Positions 2,212-13,738 of a stretch of DNA of 40,158 bases are shown piece after piece. The notes beneath the pieces are model-generated. The model had not been told where the DNA came from and made no database searches. It saw only the letters and a list, made by a program, of their open reading frames with translations. Positions within the stretch are counted from its first letter, which is position 1; each line of letters starts with the position of its first letter. Source of the stretch: a virus; the IMG/VR virus record IMGVR_UViG_3300048924_000390, positions 1 through 40,158 of that record. One strand, 5' to 3'. The translations under genes were made by a program, and so were the position numbers.

Positions 2212-3666
2212 ATGAATGATAAATCAATGTCGGCCAGTGCGATCACGTCCCAAAAAAACGCTGAATCTGAGGATGTGCAAGTCAAGGAATCCCCAATTGA
2301 AGTGGTGGTGAGGAATTACCTCTATGCCATTTTGGGGATTGGCCGCACCGCAAAAATTGCGCTGCCTCATTTTTCAAAATGGAGAAATGCGGAGCTTGAT
2401 AAGGTTTACGAAAAAGTAAAGAATTTCGTTCCAGTCTCAAAGACGGAAAAGGAGGATGCGACACTTACTTTTGCGAACGCCCGAGAGCTTGCGGAATTTA
2501 TGGATAACTGGCGTGAGTTTAAGGAGCTTTTAAATCATGACCCGTCAGCTGTTCTTGCGAAAAGTCTTTTCACTCATCTCTTTGCGGAGTTTGATTCTTA
2601 TCTGGGCGAGTTGCTTAAAATAATTTATCTCAAGGATGATAAGTTAATCAAAGGCATTGTTCGGGAGATATCTCTTTCTGATTTGATGGAGTTCCAAGAT
2701 TTATCCGATGTAAAAGTCGCAATGGTTGACAAAGAGATAGAGACATTTCGTCGAGACAGTTATGTCGAACAATTTTCAGCGCTTGAGAGAAAATTTGGCT
2801 TATCGTTGCGAAAATTCAATGAATGGCCGCTGTTTGTTGAGTTGTCTCAGCGTCGGAATTTGCTAATTCACAATGGCGGATTGGTTAGCGAGCAATATTT
2901 GGCGGTTTGTAAGCGCGAAAATTATTTATTTGATACCAAGCCGGGAATCGGTGAGGCGCTTACCGTGTCCTCTGCTTATTTTGTTGCAGGAAGTCGAATA
3001 CTTTCTAAAGTGGGCGTCATGCTGGCCTACACTTTATGGAGCAAAATATTCCCCCAAGAAGCTAACGAATTTCATACCTCGCTCAATGGTACGCTGTATA
3101 ACTGCCTGCAGCAGCAGCGCTGGAAATTTGTTGCTGAGCTGGAGGATTTTGTTCTTAGCGAGCCATTGCGAAAGGGTATATCTGAAATTCAGCTGCGAAT
3201 CAGAATTGTAAATGTTTCAATTGGATTAAAATTCTCAGGCGACTCTCAGAAGGTAAATCATCTTTTGGATTCTCTGGATTGGACGGCGAGTGTTCGGGAT
3301 TTTAAGTTGGCGATTGCTGTGCTTCAAGATCGTTATGATGAAGCTGTCGATATAATGAGAGGCATTGGGCGGAGTGGTGAAATTCTTCGTCAGTCTTCTT
3401 ATCATTCATGGCCCTTGTTTACCGAGTTTAGAAAGCAGCCAGAGTTTCATCGGGCGTATGTGGAAATTTATGGAGAGCTATTTTCTGAGACTGTTGAAAC
3501 TTCGAATGGATCTGTACATGCGCAAGCGACCGCGCCGGTCAAATCTGAAATTGGTATCGAAAAGCAGCCAATAAGTGACGTGGAGCCGAGAGAGGTAGTT
3601 TCAAAGAAAAAGCCTAAGAGTAGGTCAGCAAGCGGCTCCAAAAAGAAAGATACGGGCGCCGCCTGA
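2212..3666 (+). CDS. HEPN-like protein, possible ribonuclease effector (cargo gene)
   Basis: This 484-aa protein has a good Shine-Dalgarno (AGGAG, 8 nt before ATG). It contains LFAEFDSYLGELLKIIYL (about residues 122-140) and, about 75 residues later, QRRNLLIHNGG (213-223). The latter gives R215-x4-H220, the R-x(4-6)-H signature of HEPN domains, with the helix-1 context typical of RiboL-PSP/MAE_28990-like HEPN proteins. Many HEPN proteins are metal-independent RNases in anti-phage or toxin-antitoxin systems. The C terminus is a basic Lys/Ser-rich tail (about 466-480). The coding sequence is clearly richer in A+T than int or the late genes, which suggests recent acquisition. The gene is convergent with the excisionase and lies beside int, a usual place for cargo. 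The HEPN call rests on a short motif and the spacing of two helices; exact family and function are unknown. Confidence 0.72.
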   Translation: MNDKSMSASAITSQKNAESEDVQVKESPIEVVVRNYLYAILGIGRTAKIALPHFSKWRNAELDKVYEKVKNFVPVSKTEKEDATLTFANARELAEFMDNWREFKELLNHDPSAVLAKSLFTHLFAEFDSYLGELLKIIYLKDDKLIKGIVREISLSDLMEFQDLSDVKVAMVDKEIETFRRDSYVEQFSALERKFGLSLRKFNEWPLFVELSQRRNLLIHNGGLVSEQYLAVCKRENYLFDTKPGIGEALTVSSAYFVAGSRILSKVGVMLAYTLWSKIFPQEANEFHTSLNGTLYNCLQQQRWKFVAELEDFVLSEPLRKGISEIQLRIRIVNVSIGLKFSGDSQKVNHLLDSLDWTASVRDFKLAIAVLQDRYDEAVDIMRGIGRSGEILRQSSYHSWPLFTEFRKQPEFHRAYVEIYGELFSETVETSNGSVHAQATAPVKSEIGIEKQPISDVEPREVVSKKKPKSRSASGSKKKDTGAA

Positions 3667-4751: not shown

Positions 4752-5096
4752 CTAGGCGGCGGCGTGCGCCGGCGCGGGGGCGCGTGCGGGCAGCAGCTCG
4801 CACGAGGTGATGGCGGCGTGGATTTCGGGGGCGTGAGCGCCTGGCATCGAGCGCGGGTTCGTGAGCACCAGGCGCAGGGCGTCGCCGGCCTTCAGGCTGC
4901 GGTGCCGGGCGCGCCACGCTTCGGCCTCGGGGCCGGTCCAGCGCACCACGTATACCTCGACCGCGCGAGGGCCTTGGTTGTCAACGACGCGTATCTTCAG
5001 CACGAAGGCGCCGGCGTCGTTCCTGTGCTCGCTGACGGCTGGGCGCGTTGGGTGGTCTTTGCCGACGAAGAAGAGGCCCGTGGTGGTGGTCGTCAT
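4752..5096 (-). CDS. Hypothetical phage protein, possible OB-fold
   Basis: This 114-aa protein starts at an ATG overlapping the stop of the upstream gene (ATGA at 5093-5096). The middle (VLKIRVVDNQGPRAVEVYVV, then a loop and LKAGDALRLVLTNP, then IHAAITSCELLP) has the strand pattern and LKAGD turn of a small OB-fold. Its position in an early operon would suit a nucleic-acid-binding protein. No motif proves this. The last 12 residues are Ala/Pro-rich. Confidence 0.72.
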   Translation of the reverse strand: MTTTTTGLFFVGKDHPTRPAVSEHRNDAGAFVLKIRVVDNQGPRAVEVYVVRWTGPEAEAWRARHRSLKAGDALRLVLTNPRSMPGAHAPEIHAAITSCELLPARAPAPAHAAA

Positions 5097-5263
5097 TGCT
5101 GCGTACCCCGCTGCATCTCGGCGCGGATGCGCTTGAAGGTCTTGCGGATGTCGGTGGCGACGGCCGGTGTGTATTGGAGGCGGTCATCGGCAAGGCCGCC
5201 GACCGGGCCGGTGCGCTGCGGCTGCTTGGGCCGGCGCGGGCGAGGGGAGGTAATCACGATCAT
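5093..5263 (-). CDS. Small basic phage protein of unknown function
   Basis: The 56-aa product starts MIVITSPRPRRPKQPQRTGP. I choose the ATG at 5263 because it overlaps the preceding stop as ATGA (5260-5263); an in-frame ATG eight codons upstream has no such support. The N-terminal half is Arg/Pro-rich and the C-terminal part (TDIRKTFKRIRAEMQRG) looks helical and basic. Both ends overlap neighbouring genes by 4 nt, which supports a real gene. Function unknown. Confidence 0.65.
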   Translation of the reverse strand: MIVITSPRPRRPKQPQRTGPVGGLADDRLQYTPAVATDIRKTFKRIRAEMQRGTQQ

Positions 5264-5421
5264 GGAGTGCTCCAGCCGTAGACGCACATCGCGGCGAGCA
5301 CGATGGGCAGGACGATGAAGACCGCCAGCGCTGCAGCGGTCGCGAAGAGGCCCGGAACGGGCGCGACTGGCGATGTCCTCATGAGGCCATTGCCGGTTTC
5401 GTGGAGAGAGGTCGAGCGCAT
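5260..5421 (-). CDS. Small single-pass membrane protein
   Basis: This 53-aa product has one strong hydrophobic segment, GLFATAAALAVFIVLPIVLA followed by AMCVYGW, near its C terminus, so a single inner-membrane span is likely. An alternative ATG at 5382 would leave little more than the span. The stop overlaps the next start (ATGA). It lies in the early leftward operon; similar small membrane proteins in this position can affect host division or superinfection, but no family is recognised. Confidence 0.65.
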   Translation of the reverse strand: MRSTSLHETGNGLMRTSPVAPVPGLFATAAALAVFIVLPIVLAAMCVYGWSTP

Positions 5422-5431
5422 GGCCGGCCTT

Positions 5432-5704
5432 TCAGAAGAGGCAGGTCGCGACGGCGCGGCCCGGAGTGGTGAGGGCGATCTCGAGCGCGATGTCGAACAC
5501 CTCTTCGTCAGAGGCACCGTGTCGGCTTGCAAGCAGGGCCGCGCTCATCGGGTTGCGCTCGCAGTAGGGTGAACCCGGGCGGTGCTCGTAGTGGTATCTG
5601 CCGCACCGACACAGGCGATGGCCGGTTTCGCGCAGATGCTGCGTGAACAGGCCATGGCTGCGGCGCCGAGTGCGGCACTCGGGGCAGCGGAAGAGGAACG
5701 CCAT
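5432..5704 (-). CDS. Zinc-ribbon-like phage protein
   Basis: The 90-aa protein begins MAFLFRCPECRTRRRSHG. It contains CPEC and later CRCGRYHYEHRPGSPYC, giving several Cys/His pairs that could bind one or two zinc ions, followed by an acidic helical C terminus. The start is coupled to the upstream stop as TAATG (overlapping by one base), with AGGGAG about 10 nt before the ATG. A DNA- or protein-binding role is plausible but unproven. Confidence 0.78.
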   Translation of the reverse strand: MAFLFRCPECRTRRRSHGLFTQHLRETGHRLCRCGRYHYEHRPGSPYCERNPMSAALLASRHGASDEEVFDIALEIALTTPGRAVATCLF

Positions 5705-6195
5705 TACGCGTCATCTCCCTTGCTGCTAGCGCCTGCCGTGGGCTCTTGCGCCATACTCGTGCCCGCAACGCAGGAGGGCTCATGGCACACGGAACCATCG
5801 TTGGTATCAACCACGGCACCGGGATGTTTGCAGTTCAGGACGGAGGCGGCCAACTTGCCGTTTTCGAGCTGCTGGACTCCAACGACCTCGAAATCGGCGA
5901 TCAGGTGACCGGTGATTTGGAGGCTCTCGGCGGCGAAGACTTCTTTCACGTCAGAACCGACGAGACCTTTTCCGTCTATGGGCAGAGTGGTCCATGCAGT
6001 GTTGAACACGCCCGCAGGATGCTTGGCGGCTGAATCTTTCGCGGCCGCCTTCTTTCCGCCGCCCGATTGCAGGTCGCGCACGCCCTTGGCATAGCCACTC
6101 CAAAACGCCCGCATCGACTCGGAGATGCCGTGTTGATCCTTGAGCGTGTCAGCTCGCCGTAGGAGGGCGCTGATTTCTTTATCCGACGCACTCAC
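5704..6195 (-). CDS. Hypothetical early-operon protein; its C-terminal half lies antisense to another plausible gene
   Basis: The GTG start at 6195 overlaps the preceding stop (GTGA) and the TAA stop overlaps the next ATG (TAATG), so both ends fit the coupled operon. The N-terminal about 50 residues (MSASDKEISALLRRADTL..., AFWSGYAKGVRDLQ) look like a normal helical protein, followed by a KKAAAKDSAAK linker. The rest covers the complement of a rightward ORF (5782-6033) that has a perfect Shine-Dalgarno and a convincing protein. The codons of the two frames lie exactly on top of each other, a phase in which GC-rich DNA easily gives false open frames. The true extent of this protein is therefore uncertain. 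Confidence 0.55.
   Translation of the reverse strand: MSASDKEISALLRRADTLKDQHGISESMRAFWSGYAKGVRDLQSGGGKKAAAKDSAAKHPAGVFNTAWTTLPIDGKGLVGSDVKEVFAAESLQITGHLIADFEVVGVQQLENGKLAASVLNCKHPGAVVDTNDGSVCHEPSCVAGTSMAQEPTAGASSKGDDA
5782..6033 (+). CDS. Small beta-rich protein encoded antisense inside the leftward operon
   Basis: This 83-aa ORF has AGGAGG four nt before its ATG, the best ribosome binding site of the region. It encodes MAHGTIVGINHGTGMFAVQ, then LAVFELLDSNDLEIGDQVTG, DLEALGGEDFFHV, and FSVYGQSGPCSVEHARRML. The alternating pattern suggests a small OB/cold-shock-like barrel, and it resembles short conserved proteins I recall from betaproteobacterial genomes; that recollection is not a search result. 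An in-frame ATG further upstream lacks a ribosome site. It lies wholly within the complement of the 5704-6195 gene. By hand count GC at codon positions 1 and 3 is about equal (67% and 66%), so composition does not decide which strand codes. Confidence 0.6.
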   Translation: MAHGTIVGINHGTGMFAVQDGGGQLAVFELLDSNDLEIGDQVTGDLEALGGEDFFHVRTDETFSVYGQSGPCSVEHARRMLGG

Positions 6196-6539
6196 GCTGC
6201 ACCTCTTGCGCCGAGGTTGAGGGCGTCAATCTCCCCGTTGAGCACGCGTGCGCGCTCCGCGAATTCGACGGCCATCGGGTGTGCAGGCACTTCCTCGGTG
6301 TATGCCTCGACGGTCGCGTCGGAGATGCCTGGCAGGCTGATGCTGCCGAGCTTCAGTGCCTTGTCGGCGAGCGGCACGCCCATGGCCTGCCATGTCGAAA
6401 CGCCCACCGCCTTGCAGCGGTAAAACGCCTGGCGCCGGCGGCCAGTGATGCGCATCCAGATTTCGACGCGAGCCGCGCGGGTCGCAACGAACGGCGAGGC
6501 GCGACCAGATGTCGCGTGGTTGGTTTGTGTGCGGGCCAC
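6192..6539 (-). CDS. Hypothetical early-operon protein
   Basis: This 115-aa product has a GTG start at 6539, 4 nt after the stop of the upstream gene. It contains RRRQAFYRCKAVGVSTWQAMGVPLADKALKLG and a C-terminal helical region (AVEFAERARVLNGEIDAL). The stop overlaps the next GTG (GTGA). No family recognised; probably part of the P_L transcript. Confidence 0.68.
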   Translation of the reverse strand: MARTQTNHATSGRASPFVATRAARVEIWMRITGRRRQAFYRCKAVGVSTWQAMGVPLADKALKLGSISLPGISDATVEAYTEEVPAHPMAVEFAERARVLNGEIDALNLGARGAA

Positions 6540-6753: not shown

Positions 6754-6782
6754 AGTCTAGAAAAACTAGATTATTGAGTCAA
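6754..6782 (-). promoter_or_regulatory. P_L: promoter of the leftward early operon
   Basis: On the minus strand, TTGACT (6777-6782) and TAGACT (6754-6759) are separated by exactly 17 bp. Operator O_L1 fills part of the spacer and the -10. The same architecture occurs at P_R in front of cro. A second TTGACT starts five bases further upstream (6782-6787). Confidence 0.75.
6756..6770. promoter_or_regulatory. O_L1: repressor operator (TCTAG-N5-CTAGA)
   Basis: TCTAGAAAAACTAGA is a 15-bp site with perfect 5-bp inverted arms, overlapping the -10 of P_L. The same site recurs at 6800-6814, and a version with a different central 5 bp at 7531-7545. All three are in promoter regions next to the CI-like gene, so they are probably its binding sites. 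Confidence 0.78.
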
Positions 6783-6799: not shown

Positions 6800-6814
6800 T
6801 CTAGAAAAACTAGA
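6800..6814. promoter_or_regulatory. O_L2: second repressor operator upstream of P_L
   Basis: This is the same 15 bases as O_L1, with centres 44 bp apart (about four helical turns), so dimers could contact each other on one face of the DNA. It lies between the end of cI and the -35 of P_L. Confidence 0.75.
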
Positions 6815-6822
6815 TTACGAGT

Positions 6823-7473
6823 TCACACGAAGGTCTCAACCTTGCCGATCACTACGCCACAGAGTGAGGCGGACCCGTTGATCTTGATGATCCGGTCAGG
6901 CCAAGATGGATTGAGGGCCTGGAGCATCCGCACATCACCCTCGATGAGTAGTTGCTTGAAGGTGGCCTCTTTTTCGTCATCGAGCCGAACGATCACAAGC
7001 GACTTGTGAAGGGCATCGCGATCTGGATCGACAAAGATGCGGTCACCATCCTTGAACGACAGATCGCCCGCCGGGTTGTGCATGCTGAATCCCCGGACCT
7101 TGAGCGCATAGGTGCGGGGACCATGCCTCATGGGGCAGGGAAGCCACTCTTCCGCCGCCCCTGGCTGGAAACTCTCGACGATTTGGGACCAATGCCCAGC
7201 TTGCACCCATGAGATGAGCGGAACCCCGTATGGTGCGCCGGTCGGATCAAGCGATTCAACGTTGCCGACCTCCTGGGACGCTTGGCGCGCTTCGACTGGA
7301 AGCGGGTAGCCCGTTGCTTCCGCGATTTTCTTGATCTGTGCGTAGCTCGGCGCCGTCTTGCCAGCTTCCCAGAAACCCGCAGTTGCCTTGCTCCGGCCTA
7401 CGGCTTCGCCAAGGTCAGCCAGTGTCCAGCCTTTGTGCTTTCGTGCGGCCCGCACCCAGTCTTTGAGTTCCAT
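6823..7473 (-). CDS. cI: CI-type phage repressor with XRE HTH and S24/LexA autopeptidase domain
   Basis: I choose the ATG at 7473 (MELKDWVRAARKHKGW); the open frame upstream only runs through the operator region. The 216-aa protein has an XRE helix-turn-helix (about residues 5-60) and a LexA/S24 domain. The Ala92-Gly93 cleavage site lies in WVQAGHW, the catalytic Ser130 in VRGFSMHNP, and Lys173 in EATFKQLL. It should keep the prophage silent by binding the TCTAG-N5-CTAGA operators and be lost by RecA-stimulated self-cleavage during SOS. No clear ribosome site precedes the start, so a leaderless or weakly translated mRNA is possible. It is divergent from cro and upstream of the P_L operon. Confidence 0.93.
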   Translation of the reverse strand: MELKDWVRAARKHKGWTLADLGEAVGRSKATAGFWEAGKTAPSYAQIKKIAEATGYPLPVEARQASQEVGNVESLDPTGAPYGVPLISWVQAGHWSQIVESFQPGAAEEWLPCPMRHGPRTYALKVRGFSMHNPAGDLSFKDGDRIFVDPDRDALHKSLVIVRLDDEKEATFKQLLIEGDVRMLQALNPSWPDRIIKINGSASLCGVVIGKVETFV

Positions 7474-7518
7474 CGAGCGATGGTAAAGAAAAACTTGACC
7501 GAGTGAGGCGAGTTCTTC

Positions 7519-7547
7519 TTGACCTAAATGTCTAGAATTACTAGACT
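7519..7547 (+). promoter_or_regulatory. P_R: promoter of cro
   Basis: TTGACC (7519-7524), a 17-bp spacer and TAGACT (7542-7547) lie about 30 bp before the cro ATG. The operator at 7531-7545 fills the spacer and overlaps the -10, so repressor binding would exclude RNA polymerase. A second CTTGACC copy lies 24 bp upstream (7494-7500) without a matching -10. Confidence 0.75.
7531..7545. promoter_or_regulatory. O_R: repressor operator in P_R
   Basis: TCTAGAATTACTAGA has the same arms as O_L1 and O_L2 but a different centre (AATTA rather than AAAAA). The centre may tune affinity between the two control regions. Confidence 0.75.
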
Positions 7548-7576
7548 TCTGGCAATTCAAGAGCTGAGAGTCAAGC

Positions 7577-7828
7577 ATGGAGCACCCCATCGAAAGGGCG
7601 GCAAAGATCGTGGGTTCGCAAACCGCCCTTGCTACCGAGCTGGGCGTTACGAAGGCCGCTGTGGGCCAATGGAAAGAGGATGGCCGCCGCGTGCCGGCGG
7701 AGCATTGCCCACTGATTGAGGAATTGACGGCCGGCGCCGTGCGCTGCGAAGAACTGCGTCCCGATGTGGCGTGGCGCGTGCTGCGCGGTCAAGCGCATCG
7801 CGTCGAAAGGCTGGGCGCTGATGTCTAG
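7577..7828 (+). CDS. cro: Cro-like / YdaS-family HTH regulator
   Basis: This 83-aa protein reads MEHPIERAAKIVGSQTALAT then ELGVTKAAVGQWKEDGRRVP and AEHCPLIEEL. This is the helix-turn-helix of YdaS-type antitoxin/Cro-like proteins, which occupy the cro place in many lambdoid prophages. It starts 30 bp after P_R and is divergent from cI, so it should repress cI or the early promoters and favour lytic growth. Its stop lies one base from the end of the convergent gene at 7830. Confidence 0.88.
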   Translation: MEHPIERAAKIVGSQTALATELGVTKAAVGQWKEDGRRVPAEHCPLIEELTAGAVRCEELRPDVAWRVLRGQAHRVERLGADV

Positions 7829-11072: not shown

Positions 11073-11603
11073 GTGAAGGCAGTCGAAGTGATGAGGCAGG
11101 CGATTTCGCAGGCCGAGTTTGGCGCGTGGGTCGGAATCAGCGAGGCGCGCGTCAGCCAGCTCATGGCCGAGGGGGTGCTCACGCGCGGCGAGTCCGGCCA
11201 TGAATGGCTCGTTGCGTATTGCGAGCGGATGCGCGACATCGCCGCCGGCCGTGCATCGTCCGAGACGGGTGGCCTCGACCTCGTGCAAGAGCGCGCCGCC
11301 CTGGCGCGCGAGCAGCGCCTCGGCATCGCCATCAAGAACGCCGTTGCCCGCGGCGAGTACGCGCCCATCTCGCTGCTCGCCGAGGTGCTGGCGACCGCGA
11401 GCCAATCCGTCTCAGAACGCTTCGAGCAACTGCCCGGCCTGCTGCGCAAGGTCTGCCCCGAGCTGCCCGATACGGCGCGCGATCAGGTGATGTCCGCCAT
11501 TGCCGACGCGCGCAACCAGTGGGTGCGCGCCACAGCCCGCCTCGTGGCCGAAGCTGTGACGCCGCCCGATGACGACCTTGAAGAAGAGGGCGATCCCCAG
11601 TGA
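11073..11603 (+). CDS. Terminase small subunit (Nu1-like)
   Basis: This 176-aa product has a GTG start preceded by AAGGGGG. Its N-terminal winged helix (SQAEFGAWVGISEARVSQLM, AEGVLTRGESGHEWLVAYCE) matches lambda Nu1-type DNA recognition, followed by a helical region (REQRLGIAIKNAVARGEYAP) and an acidic C terminus. It would bind cos, 42 bp upstream, and load the large subunit. The stop overlaps the terL start (GTGA). Confidence 0.88.
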   Translation: MKAVEVMRQAISQAEFGAWVGISEARVSQLMAEGVLTRGESGHEWLVAYCERMRDIAAGRASSETGGLDLVQERAALAREQRLGIAIKNAVARGEYAPISLLAEVLATASQSVSERFEQLPGLLRKVCPELPDTARDQVMSAIADARNQWVRATARLVAEAVTPPDDDLEEEGDPQ

Positions 11604-13738
11604 GCCTGGCACCTACCGAGACGCAGCGCGCCGTCATCAAGGCGACCTTGACCGGCCTCGGGCCGCTCAAGATGGAGCGCCCCCAGCCGCTCAGCGCATG
11701 GGCTGAAGCGAACTTCTACCTGTCGCCCGAGGCCAGCCACACGCAGGGCGAGTGGAGGGCCTACCCGTTCCAGCGCGGCTGGATGGATGCCTTCAGCAAT
11801 GACGACATCGAAGAGGTGACCGTCCGCAAGGCGAAGCGCGTCGGCTACACCAAGACGCTGCTCGCCTTCATCGCTTACAACGCAGCGCACCGCCGGCGCA
11901 AGCAGGCGCTGTGGATGCCGACCGACGACGACCGCGACAGCTTCGTGAAGTCCGAGATCGAGCCGATGCTGCGCGACGTGGGCGCCCTCAAGGCCGTGAC
12001 GGTTCCGGGCAAGGAAGACACGATGAAGCTGAAGAGCTTCTTCGGATCGGTGCTGCACCTGCTCGGTGGCAAAGCCGCGCGCGCCTATCGCCGGATCACG
12101 GTGGCCGTCGCGATCCTCGACGAGGCCTCGGCCTTCGACCAGAAGATCGAGAAATCGTCCGACCCGATCACACTCGCGCGCGGCCGCCTCGAAGGCGCGC
12201 CGTTCCCGAAGCTGGTCGCCGGCAGCACCGTGCGCATCAAGGACTTCGACCACATCGAATACCGCGAGAAGAACGCCGATGCGCGCATGCGATACAACAT
12301 CGTTTGCCCGCACTGCGACGCCGAGCACCCGCTCATGTGGGGCAGCAAGAAGGTGCAGCACGGCTTCAAGTGGGACGGCTACGACCACGACACCGTGCGG
12401 CATGTGTGCCCGCACTGCCACGAGTCGATCACCCAGGCCGATTACCTGCGCATCTGGGACAGCGCTGCGATGTGGGTCAGCGAGTGCGGCCGGTATCGCT
12501 ACGACCACCATCTGCACGTATGGACTGATGCGCAGAGCGTCGTCATCCGTGCGCCGCGCCATGTGGCCTTCGTCGAGATGTGGAGCGGCTACAGCCCACA
12601 GCGCGCGTGGTCCGACATCGTGCGCGAGTTCCTGGAGGCCACGACGAAGGCGAAGGCCGGCGACACCGCACCGCTCGAAGGCTTCGTCAACGAAACGCTT
12701 GCGCAGTATTGGGAGGCCGTCGTCGAGCGCGCCGACGAGCACGCGCTCTCGCGCCGCGCTGAGAACTATCGCCGCTTCAACGTGCCGTATGGCGGCCTCG
12801 TGCTGGTCACGGGCGTGGACGTGCAGGACAACCGATTCGAGGTAGTGACGTGGGCCATCGGCCGCGGTGAGGAAATGTGGTGCGTCGATTACAGCGTGAT
12901 CTACGCGAACCCCGCCGATGAGCGCGATTGGTCGCACCTCGATGCCTACCGCAAGACCATCTTCCAGCATGCGAGCGGGCAGGCGATGCGCATCGAGGCC
13001 ATGGCGGTGGACACCGGCGGCCACTTCACGCACCAGGCCTACAACTACTGCCGCCAGCGCGAGCGCGAGCGGGTGTTCGCGGTGCGCGGTGACCCGCAGC
13101 CCAGCAAGATGGTCAAGAGCAAGGCCACGGTGCAGGACGTGAACTGGGGCGGCAAGATCATCAAGAAGGGCGTGCGCCTCTGGTACGTGGGCACCGACAC
13201 GGCAAAGGACTTGATCTACGGGCGCCTGTGCGTCGAAAAGAGGGGCGCCGGCTTCGTGCACTTCAGCAAGGACTTGCCGCAGGAGTTCTATACGCAGCTG
13301 ACCTCCGAGGCGCGCGTGCCGCAGCGCGTGGCCGGTGGCGAGGCCTATCGTTGGATGAAGTCGCCGGGTGCGCGCAATGAAGCGTTGGACTGCACTGTCT
13401 ACGCGGTCTTCTGCACGCACATGCTCGGGCTGCACCTCTACACAGGAAAGATGTGGGAGCGGTTGGAGTCCATCGTTCAGCCGCCAACGGCAGACCTGTT
13501 TCGCGTGGAACGGACTGAAGAGGCTTCACCGGCGGATGTTCCACGCGAAACGCAGTCGCAGAAAGAGCCGGCAGAGCAACAGGCCGCCGAGCTGAGCGTT
13601 GCACCAGCGAGCGCACCTCCAACGGTCACCGCGCCGCTACCGACGCCGCCGCCTGCCGCAATTGCTCCGAAGCCGGTGCAGCCGCGTCGGATCGTTCAAC
13701 GCCCATCCCGAAAAATCTATCCCGCACGAACATGGTGA
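11600..13738 (+). CDS. Terminase large subunit (lambda GpA-like)
   Basis: This 712-aa DNA-packaging ATPase/nuclease has a lambda-type Walker A KAKRVGYTK (about residues 77-85) and Walker B VAVAILDE (about 168-175). Two CPHC motifs (one followed by DAEH, one by HESI) form a probable zinc site. Acidic nuclease positions include GVDVQDN, VDTGGHF and EALDCTVYA. The last about 80 residues are a Pro/Ala/Thr-rich low-complexity tail ending SRKIYPARTW, perhaps a flexible arm towards the portal. The GTG start is coupled to terS. The DNA for the start of the tail carries a 14-bp perfect inverted repeat (13498-13551). Confidence 0.94.
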   Translation: MSLAPTETQRAVIKATLTGLGPLKMERPQPLSAWAEANFYLSPEASHTQGEWRAYPFQRGWMDAFSNDDIEEVTVRKAKRVGYTKTLLAFIAYNAAHRRRKQALWMPTDDDRDSFVKSEIEPMLRDVGALKAVTVPGKEDTMKLKSFFGSVLHLLGGKAARAYRRITVAVAILDEASAFDQKIEKSSDPITLARGRLEGAPFPKLVAGSTVRIKDFDHIEYREKNADARMRYNIVCPHCDAEHPLMWGSKKVQHGFKWDGYDHDTVRHVCPHCHESITQADYLRIWDSAAMWVSECGRYRYDHHLHVWTDAQSVVIRAPRHVAFVEMWSGYSPQRAWSDIVREFLEATTKAKAGDTAPLEGFVNETLAQYWEAVVERADEHALSRRAENYRRFNVPYGGLVLVTGVDVQDNRFEVVTWAIGRGEEMWCVDYSVIYANPADERDWSHLDAYRKTIFQHASGQAMRIEAMAVDTGGHFTHQAYNYCRQRERERVFAVRGDPQPSKMVKSKATVQDVNWGGKIIKKGVRLWYVGTDTAKDLIYGRLCVEKRGAGFVHFSKDLPQEFYTQLTSEARVPQRVAGGEAYRWMKSPGARNEALDCTVYAVFCTHMLGLHLYTGKMWERLESIVQPPTADLFRVERTEEASPADVPRETQSQKEPAEQQAAELSVAPASAPPTVTAPLPTPPPAAIAPKPVQPRRIVQRPSRKIYPARTW
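13497..13552. repeat. Inverted pair of parS-like 16-mers in terL
   Basis: TGTTTCGCGTGGAACG (13497-13512) and TGTTCCACGCGAAACG (13537-13552) contain a 14-bp perfect inverted repeat with a 26-bp spacer. The second matches the bacterial parS form TGTTCCACGTGAAACA at 14 of 16 positions. It may be a ParB-like or unrelated protein-binding site, or a strong mRNA hairpin. Confidence 0.5.

Follow-up and report, generated by a model that had tools for sequence, protein, structure and literature searches.

A probable cargo gene and its instructive antisense shadow reading frame in the putative P_L operon of a phage

A rightward open reading frame (ORF) that lies codon on codon inside a leftward operon gene of a viral genome is interpreted here as a cargo gene of ordinary kind, whose shadow ORF on the opposite strand is instructive; overprinting is not supported. 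The DNA analysed was a 40158-base virus record (IMGVR_UViG_3300048924_000390), whose full length is called the window below. The preliminary description of this DNA had held that either one frame is false or the pair is a case of true overprinting. The leftward frame was indeed found to be without protein-level selection in the overlap, but both genes are real, so that the alternative as originally posed stands in part only. In all likelihood, two genuine genes lie tail to tail, and the leftward frame overruns its own gene, passing through the cargo antisense as far as the next operon gene. The features concerned are as follows.

5432..5704, minus strand: next gene down the operon (90 aa), which bounds a variable slot on the left; related prophages have it at 71-94% identity
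5704-6195, minus strand: leftward ORF, 163 codons, GTG start, TAA stop
5704..5781, minus strand: last leftward codons, over the 5' region of the cargo gene, with the TAATG end at the next gene
5746..5757, plus strand: TTGCGCCATACT, likely -10 region of the rightward gene, a motif ahead of it that is conserved in five prophage loci
5772..5777, plus strand: AGGAGG ribosome-binding site of the rightward gene (from the sequence)
5782-6033, plus strand: rightward ORF, 83 codons, ATG start; gene for an 83-aa small beta-barrel (OB-like) protein (homologues, dN/dS, AlphaFold2 model)
5782..6024, minus strand: portion of the leftward ORF that is antisense shadow, free of stops and unconstrained as protein
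6025..6195, minus strand: leftward residues 1-57, the helical portion of this gene that is under selection, with only its last three codons inside the overlap
6192..6539, minus strand: preceding gene of the operon (115 aa), which bounds the variable slot on the right; related prophages have it at 60-82% identity
6754..6814, minus strand: probable P_L (TTGACT-17-TAGACT), accompanied by a pair of operator-like palindromes, TCTAGAAAAACTAGA (sigma-70 scan and palindrome matches)

The geometry given in the preliminary description was reproduced throughout. The rightward ORF is contained wholly in the leftward one, whose two ends are fixed by its neighbours: the GTG start overlaps the stop of the upstream gene as GTGA, and the stop is shared with the start of the downstream gene as TAATG. 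The stretch 5782-6195 measures 414 bases, which is divisible by 3, and the codons of the two ORFs are thus exactly opposed. GC content at rightward codon positions 1, 2 and 3 is 67.5, 41.0 and 66.3%, in keeping with an earlier hand count of about 67% and 66% for positions 1 and 3, and the AGGAGG site is followed four bases on by the ATG. The rightward stop codon lies opposite leftward codon 55.

The per-frame selection check that had been proposed was run on ten pairs from five loci (the window and the related loci L019, L021, L055 and L066). By the Nei-Gojobori method, dN/dS in the overlap was 0.03-0.34 for the rightward frame and 1.15-5.28 for the leftward frame in every one of the ten pairs. 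Between L019 and L055, which are closest to each other, the 18 differences comprised 16 synonymous and 2 nonsynonymous changes in the rightward frame, and 1 and 17, respectively, in the leftward frame. Because constraint on the rightward frame biases leftward dN/dS upwards, the overlap was tested again with the other frame held constant, by using the OLGenie definitions (PMC7531306) for the sas13 register in a script of our own with bootstrap ranges. Rightward dNN/dSN was 0.43 (0.32-0.55) with the leftward frame held constant, and leftward dNN/dNS was 1.05 (0.74-1.54) with the rightward frame held constant. Since control homologues of the rightward gene that lack the leftward gene gave a leftward dNN/dNS of 0.76 (0.51-1.18), the leftward frame shows no extra constraint. 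Among rightward-synonymous differences, leftward substitutions were roughly as conservative as chance predicts. A lowered synonymous rate within the overlap was also considered and rejected: rightward dS was 1.06 between the window and L021 and 1.05 between the window and L019, not below that of neighbouring genes, and the one low-dS pair, L019 and L055, had a low dN as well. The overlap is therefore under purifying selection in the rightward frame and neutral in the leftward frame, with the proviso that weak or recent leftward constraint would escape detection, because the pair is known from five loci only, two of them close.

Openness of the leftward frame, in turn, follows from codon usage. 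In the codon-aligned register, antisense stops require TTA, CTA or TCA in the rightward gene, and the frame stays open through the cargo antisense because GC-rich codon usage seldom has these codons. Under the codon usage of the window, the probability that the codon-aligned antisense of the rightward protein is open is 0.36 (0.18-0.39 for the individual homologues); 238 of 455 stretches of 83 codons taken from window genes (52%) have an open codon-aligned antisense; and five of six rightward homologues without the leftward partner are open in the leftward frame. The tail at 5704-5781 is open over 78 bases in the window, 81 in L021, and 93 in both L019 and L055, each with a probability of about 0.5 by composition. 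Over the overlap, neither frame contains a stop in any of the five loci. The preliminary description had looked to homologues of one protein only, with stops in the other frame of relatives, as the sign against its pairing; both proteins were found to have homologues, with 0 leftward stops in four related loci, a test that is weak in the codon-aligned register because openness follows from codon usage. The absence of stops as a sign of overprinting was consequently rejected, codon usage and composition making openness common. Elsewhere in the window, a leftward 650-aa ORF (11483-13435, minus strand) is codon-aligned for 612 codons with the terminase large-subunit gene (11600-13738); it has no Pfam match and is a large shadow ORF. 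Codon usage as the cause of codon-aligned antisense frames has been discussed previously, with reference to Merino 1994 and Silke 1997 (PMC3454372).

A search for homologues of both translations, likewise proposed at the outset, separated the two proteins. Homologues of the rightward protein (46-70% identity) occur in prophages, on a Paraburkholderia plasmid and in Burkholderiales genomes, and homologues of the leftward protein were found only in phage loci. The rightward gene is found without the leftward gene on the Paraburkholderia phymatum plasmid pBPHY02 (51% identity, annotated as WP_012406719.1), in Burkholderia sp. S171, in one viral contig and in other genomes of the order; homologues were detected in 5 of 399 genomes of the order at E <= 0.001, S171 being one of the five. 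Single-sequence searches of phages and viral contigs returned no relatives of either protein, and DNA similarity searches returned nothing among plasmids and the downstream gene only among phages; the relatives were reached via the plasmid match, alignments and flanking genes.

Signals upstream of the rightward gene are also shared. GGAGG sites precede the same ATG in L019, L021 and L055, and the motif TGCG[CT][CG]ATACT recurs in five of five prophage loci, with much the same spacing to the ATG. This CATACT-like candidate -10 element has no clear -35 partner and was missed by the sigma-70 scan, and a terminator scan found none near the gene. The AlphaFold2 model, predicted from an alignment without the plasmid sequence row, is a barrel of six strands plus a C-terminal helix (pLDDT 91.4, pTM 0.81). 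The best matches in the fold search include RPA, cold-shock (CSP) and HypC-like chains, all at E > 0.3; we use "OB-like" as a description and not as a membership because no fold match is significant. A PDB sequence search gave weak matches only, none of the fold searches produced a significant one, and Pfam, PHROGs and NCBIfam supplied no family name for the rightward or the leftward protein. The rightward gene appears to be an autonomous, moron-like cargo gene that carries a ribosome-binding site and probably also a promoter of its own.

The leftward gene, as far as comparison of sequences goes, is demonstrably constrained in its first third only. Residues 1-57 are 53-81% identical among five related loci, with dN/dS of 0.06-0.37. 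The predicted structure has an overall pLDDT of 48.3, with helices up to residue 57; by ten-residue blocks, pLDDT is 58-75 up to residue 50 and <=50 in every block beyond, the fall to low values setting in after residue 47. The domain had no match in the 399 genomes of the order, nor did the whole protein among plasmids. The remaining tail of about 106 residues, if made at all, would be unselected filler, a part of the two-gene reading that we hold to be very likely as a whole.

The pair occupies a variable slot. The two border genes (115 aa and 90 aa) retrieved approximately 30 related viral contigs, and the distance between the homologues of 6192-6539 and 5432-5704 ranges from 5 to 1701 bases, filled by differing small genes. 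In L005-L034, the slot holds differing short leftward genes, chained by start/stop overlaps. The leftward/rightward pair is present in the same slot in L021, L019 and L055, and a more distant pair with a different downstream gene is found in L066. In the latter (4998-5816, plus strand), the leftward frame crosses the cargo antisense and continues in frame into a coding-like stretch, giving an ORF of >270 codons. In L029 there is a leftward gene of 74 aa and no cargo gene, with an apparent deletion scar at 2780-3004. The antisense of this gene reads TARGLLGH-stop where the cargo C-terminus would lie and in its register, the relatives having ARxLLxx-stop; this fits loss of the cargo gene by an in-phase deletion, as suggested by about eight codons. 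L017 provides a second codon-aligned case in this slot, in which an unrelated rightward 102-aa gene (2624-2932, minus strand) lies inside a leftward ORF (2558-3004, plus strand) bounded by GTGA and ATGA; this rightward gene has homologues in 14 of the 399 genomes of the order.

The window encodes an integrase, a CI-like S24 repressor (6823-7590), a Cro/YdaS-like gene (7577-7828) and a GpA-type terminase. Two copies of an operator-like palindrome, TCTAGAAAAACTAGA, are found at 6756-6770 and 6800-6814, and a further copy at 7531-7545 has 2 mismatches; allowing <=3 mismatches, 5 matches were observed against 0.22 expected. They are overlapped by sigma-70-like sites, leftward at 6782-6754 and rightward at 7519-7547, and operator-like sites with sigma-70-like P_L and P_R thus flank the CI-like gene on both sides. 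The preliminary description had named the leftward transcript P_L, which agrees with the leftward promoter and two palindromes found here and with a CI-like repressor just upstream of the operon. Because of these palindromes, the overlapping promoter-like sites and the repressor, the leftward operon is very probably a P_L operon. A CI-controlled P_L operon would then include the leftward gene with its selected domain of about 57 residues, and the rightward 83-residue cargo gene would occupy the variable slot of that operon. The leftward frame, codon-aligned with the cargo gene by happenstance, would remain open through the cargo antisense and end at the next operon gene, and its tail may be translated as filler. 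In the lysogen, with P_L repressed, the cargo gene could be expressed from its own predicted promoter; after induction, P_L transcription would oppose the cargo gene and shut it off.

Three other explanations were weighed against that of two tail-to-tail genes. That the rightward ORF is a false frame and the leftward gene the sole real one might be argued from its position within a gene of the operon whose start and stop overlaps are firm, but the partner-free homologues on the Paraburkholderia plasmid and in Burkholderiales genomes, the strong purifying selection on the rightward frame and its confident fold refute this idea, to which we assign next to no likelihood. True overprinting, with both proteins functional across the entire overlap, could appeal to two frames that are open and alignable over their full length in five loci. 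Nevertheless, the leftward frame in the overlap is as neutral as in the control, its overlap part has no confident fold, and the 74-aa gene of L029 does without that part, which makes overprinting very improbable.

Some observations run against a mere shadow. In four of four loci (the window, L019, L021 and L055), the leftward frame contains no stop, keeps phase with the next gene and ends on the start of the latter; the tail lengths differ by multiples of three, all indels being in phase; and the L029 deletion is phase-preserving as well. The leftward frame, though not its sequence, could therefore be maintained. A translational bridge would account for this: irrespective of the amino acids encoded, the frame would be kept free of stops to let ribosomes travelling along the P_L transcript arrive at the next gene without Rho-dependent polarity over the cargo antisense. 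The P_L genes of the slot would then use cargo antisense as a translated bridge, under selection against stops and frameshifts only, and L017, where an unrelated rightward gene is likewise spanned from GTGA to ATGA, would be the second case. Against this stand the openness of five of six partner-free homologues in the same frame and of the tail at about even chance from composition alone. In addition, the ATGA or GTGA start of the next gene in relatives contains TGA, a stop in the leftward frame anyway, and a GGAGG-like site precedes the next gene in L019 and L055. The loci moreover share ancestry, and the window case was chosen for this very feature. Such a bridge is accordingly unlikely, if clearly less so than overprinting, and the reading of two genes with an overrunning leftward frame is preferred.

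Morons, or lysogenic cargo genes, are single genes of temperate phages with their own promoter and terminator. The rightward gene resembles this class in being single, in carrying a ribosome-binding site and likely also a promoter of its own, in lying on the other strand from the operon around it, in varying between relatives and in having homologues outside phages; it differs in that its 3' end overlaps an operon gene and no terminator was seen. In its arrangement, the pair can also be likened to gene 10 and olg1 of phage Fc02 (PMC9936078), an early operon gene of a temperate phage with a lysogen-side ORF opposite it, near the repressor. Both Fc02 proteins, expressed from plasmids, gave superinfection exclusion (PMC9936078), whereas the leftward overlap here is without selection. 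The sas13 (frame -1) shadow ORFs of GC-rich genes (PMC3454372) are alike in their long codon-aligned opposite frame and its cause in codon usage, the difference being that here a real short gene precedes the shadow in the same frame, and the shadow extends as far as the next operon gene.

For GC-rich phages, these data provide a clean counterexample to the reading of codon-aligned antisense ORFs as overprinting: a pair may have start/stop overlaps, homologues for each frame and stop-free relatives, and still only one protein in the overlap is under selection. They also identify a family of small OB-like proteins for which Pfam, PHROGs and NCBIfam have no model, with members in Burkholderiales prophages and chromosomes and on a plasmid, as well as a variable cargo slot within the P_L operon. 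Should the translated bridge prove true, cargo would be insertable against the operon without polarity.
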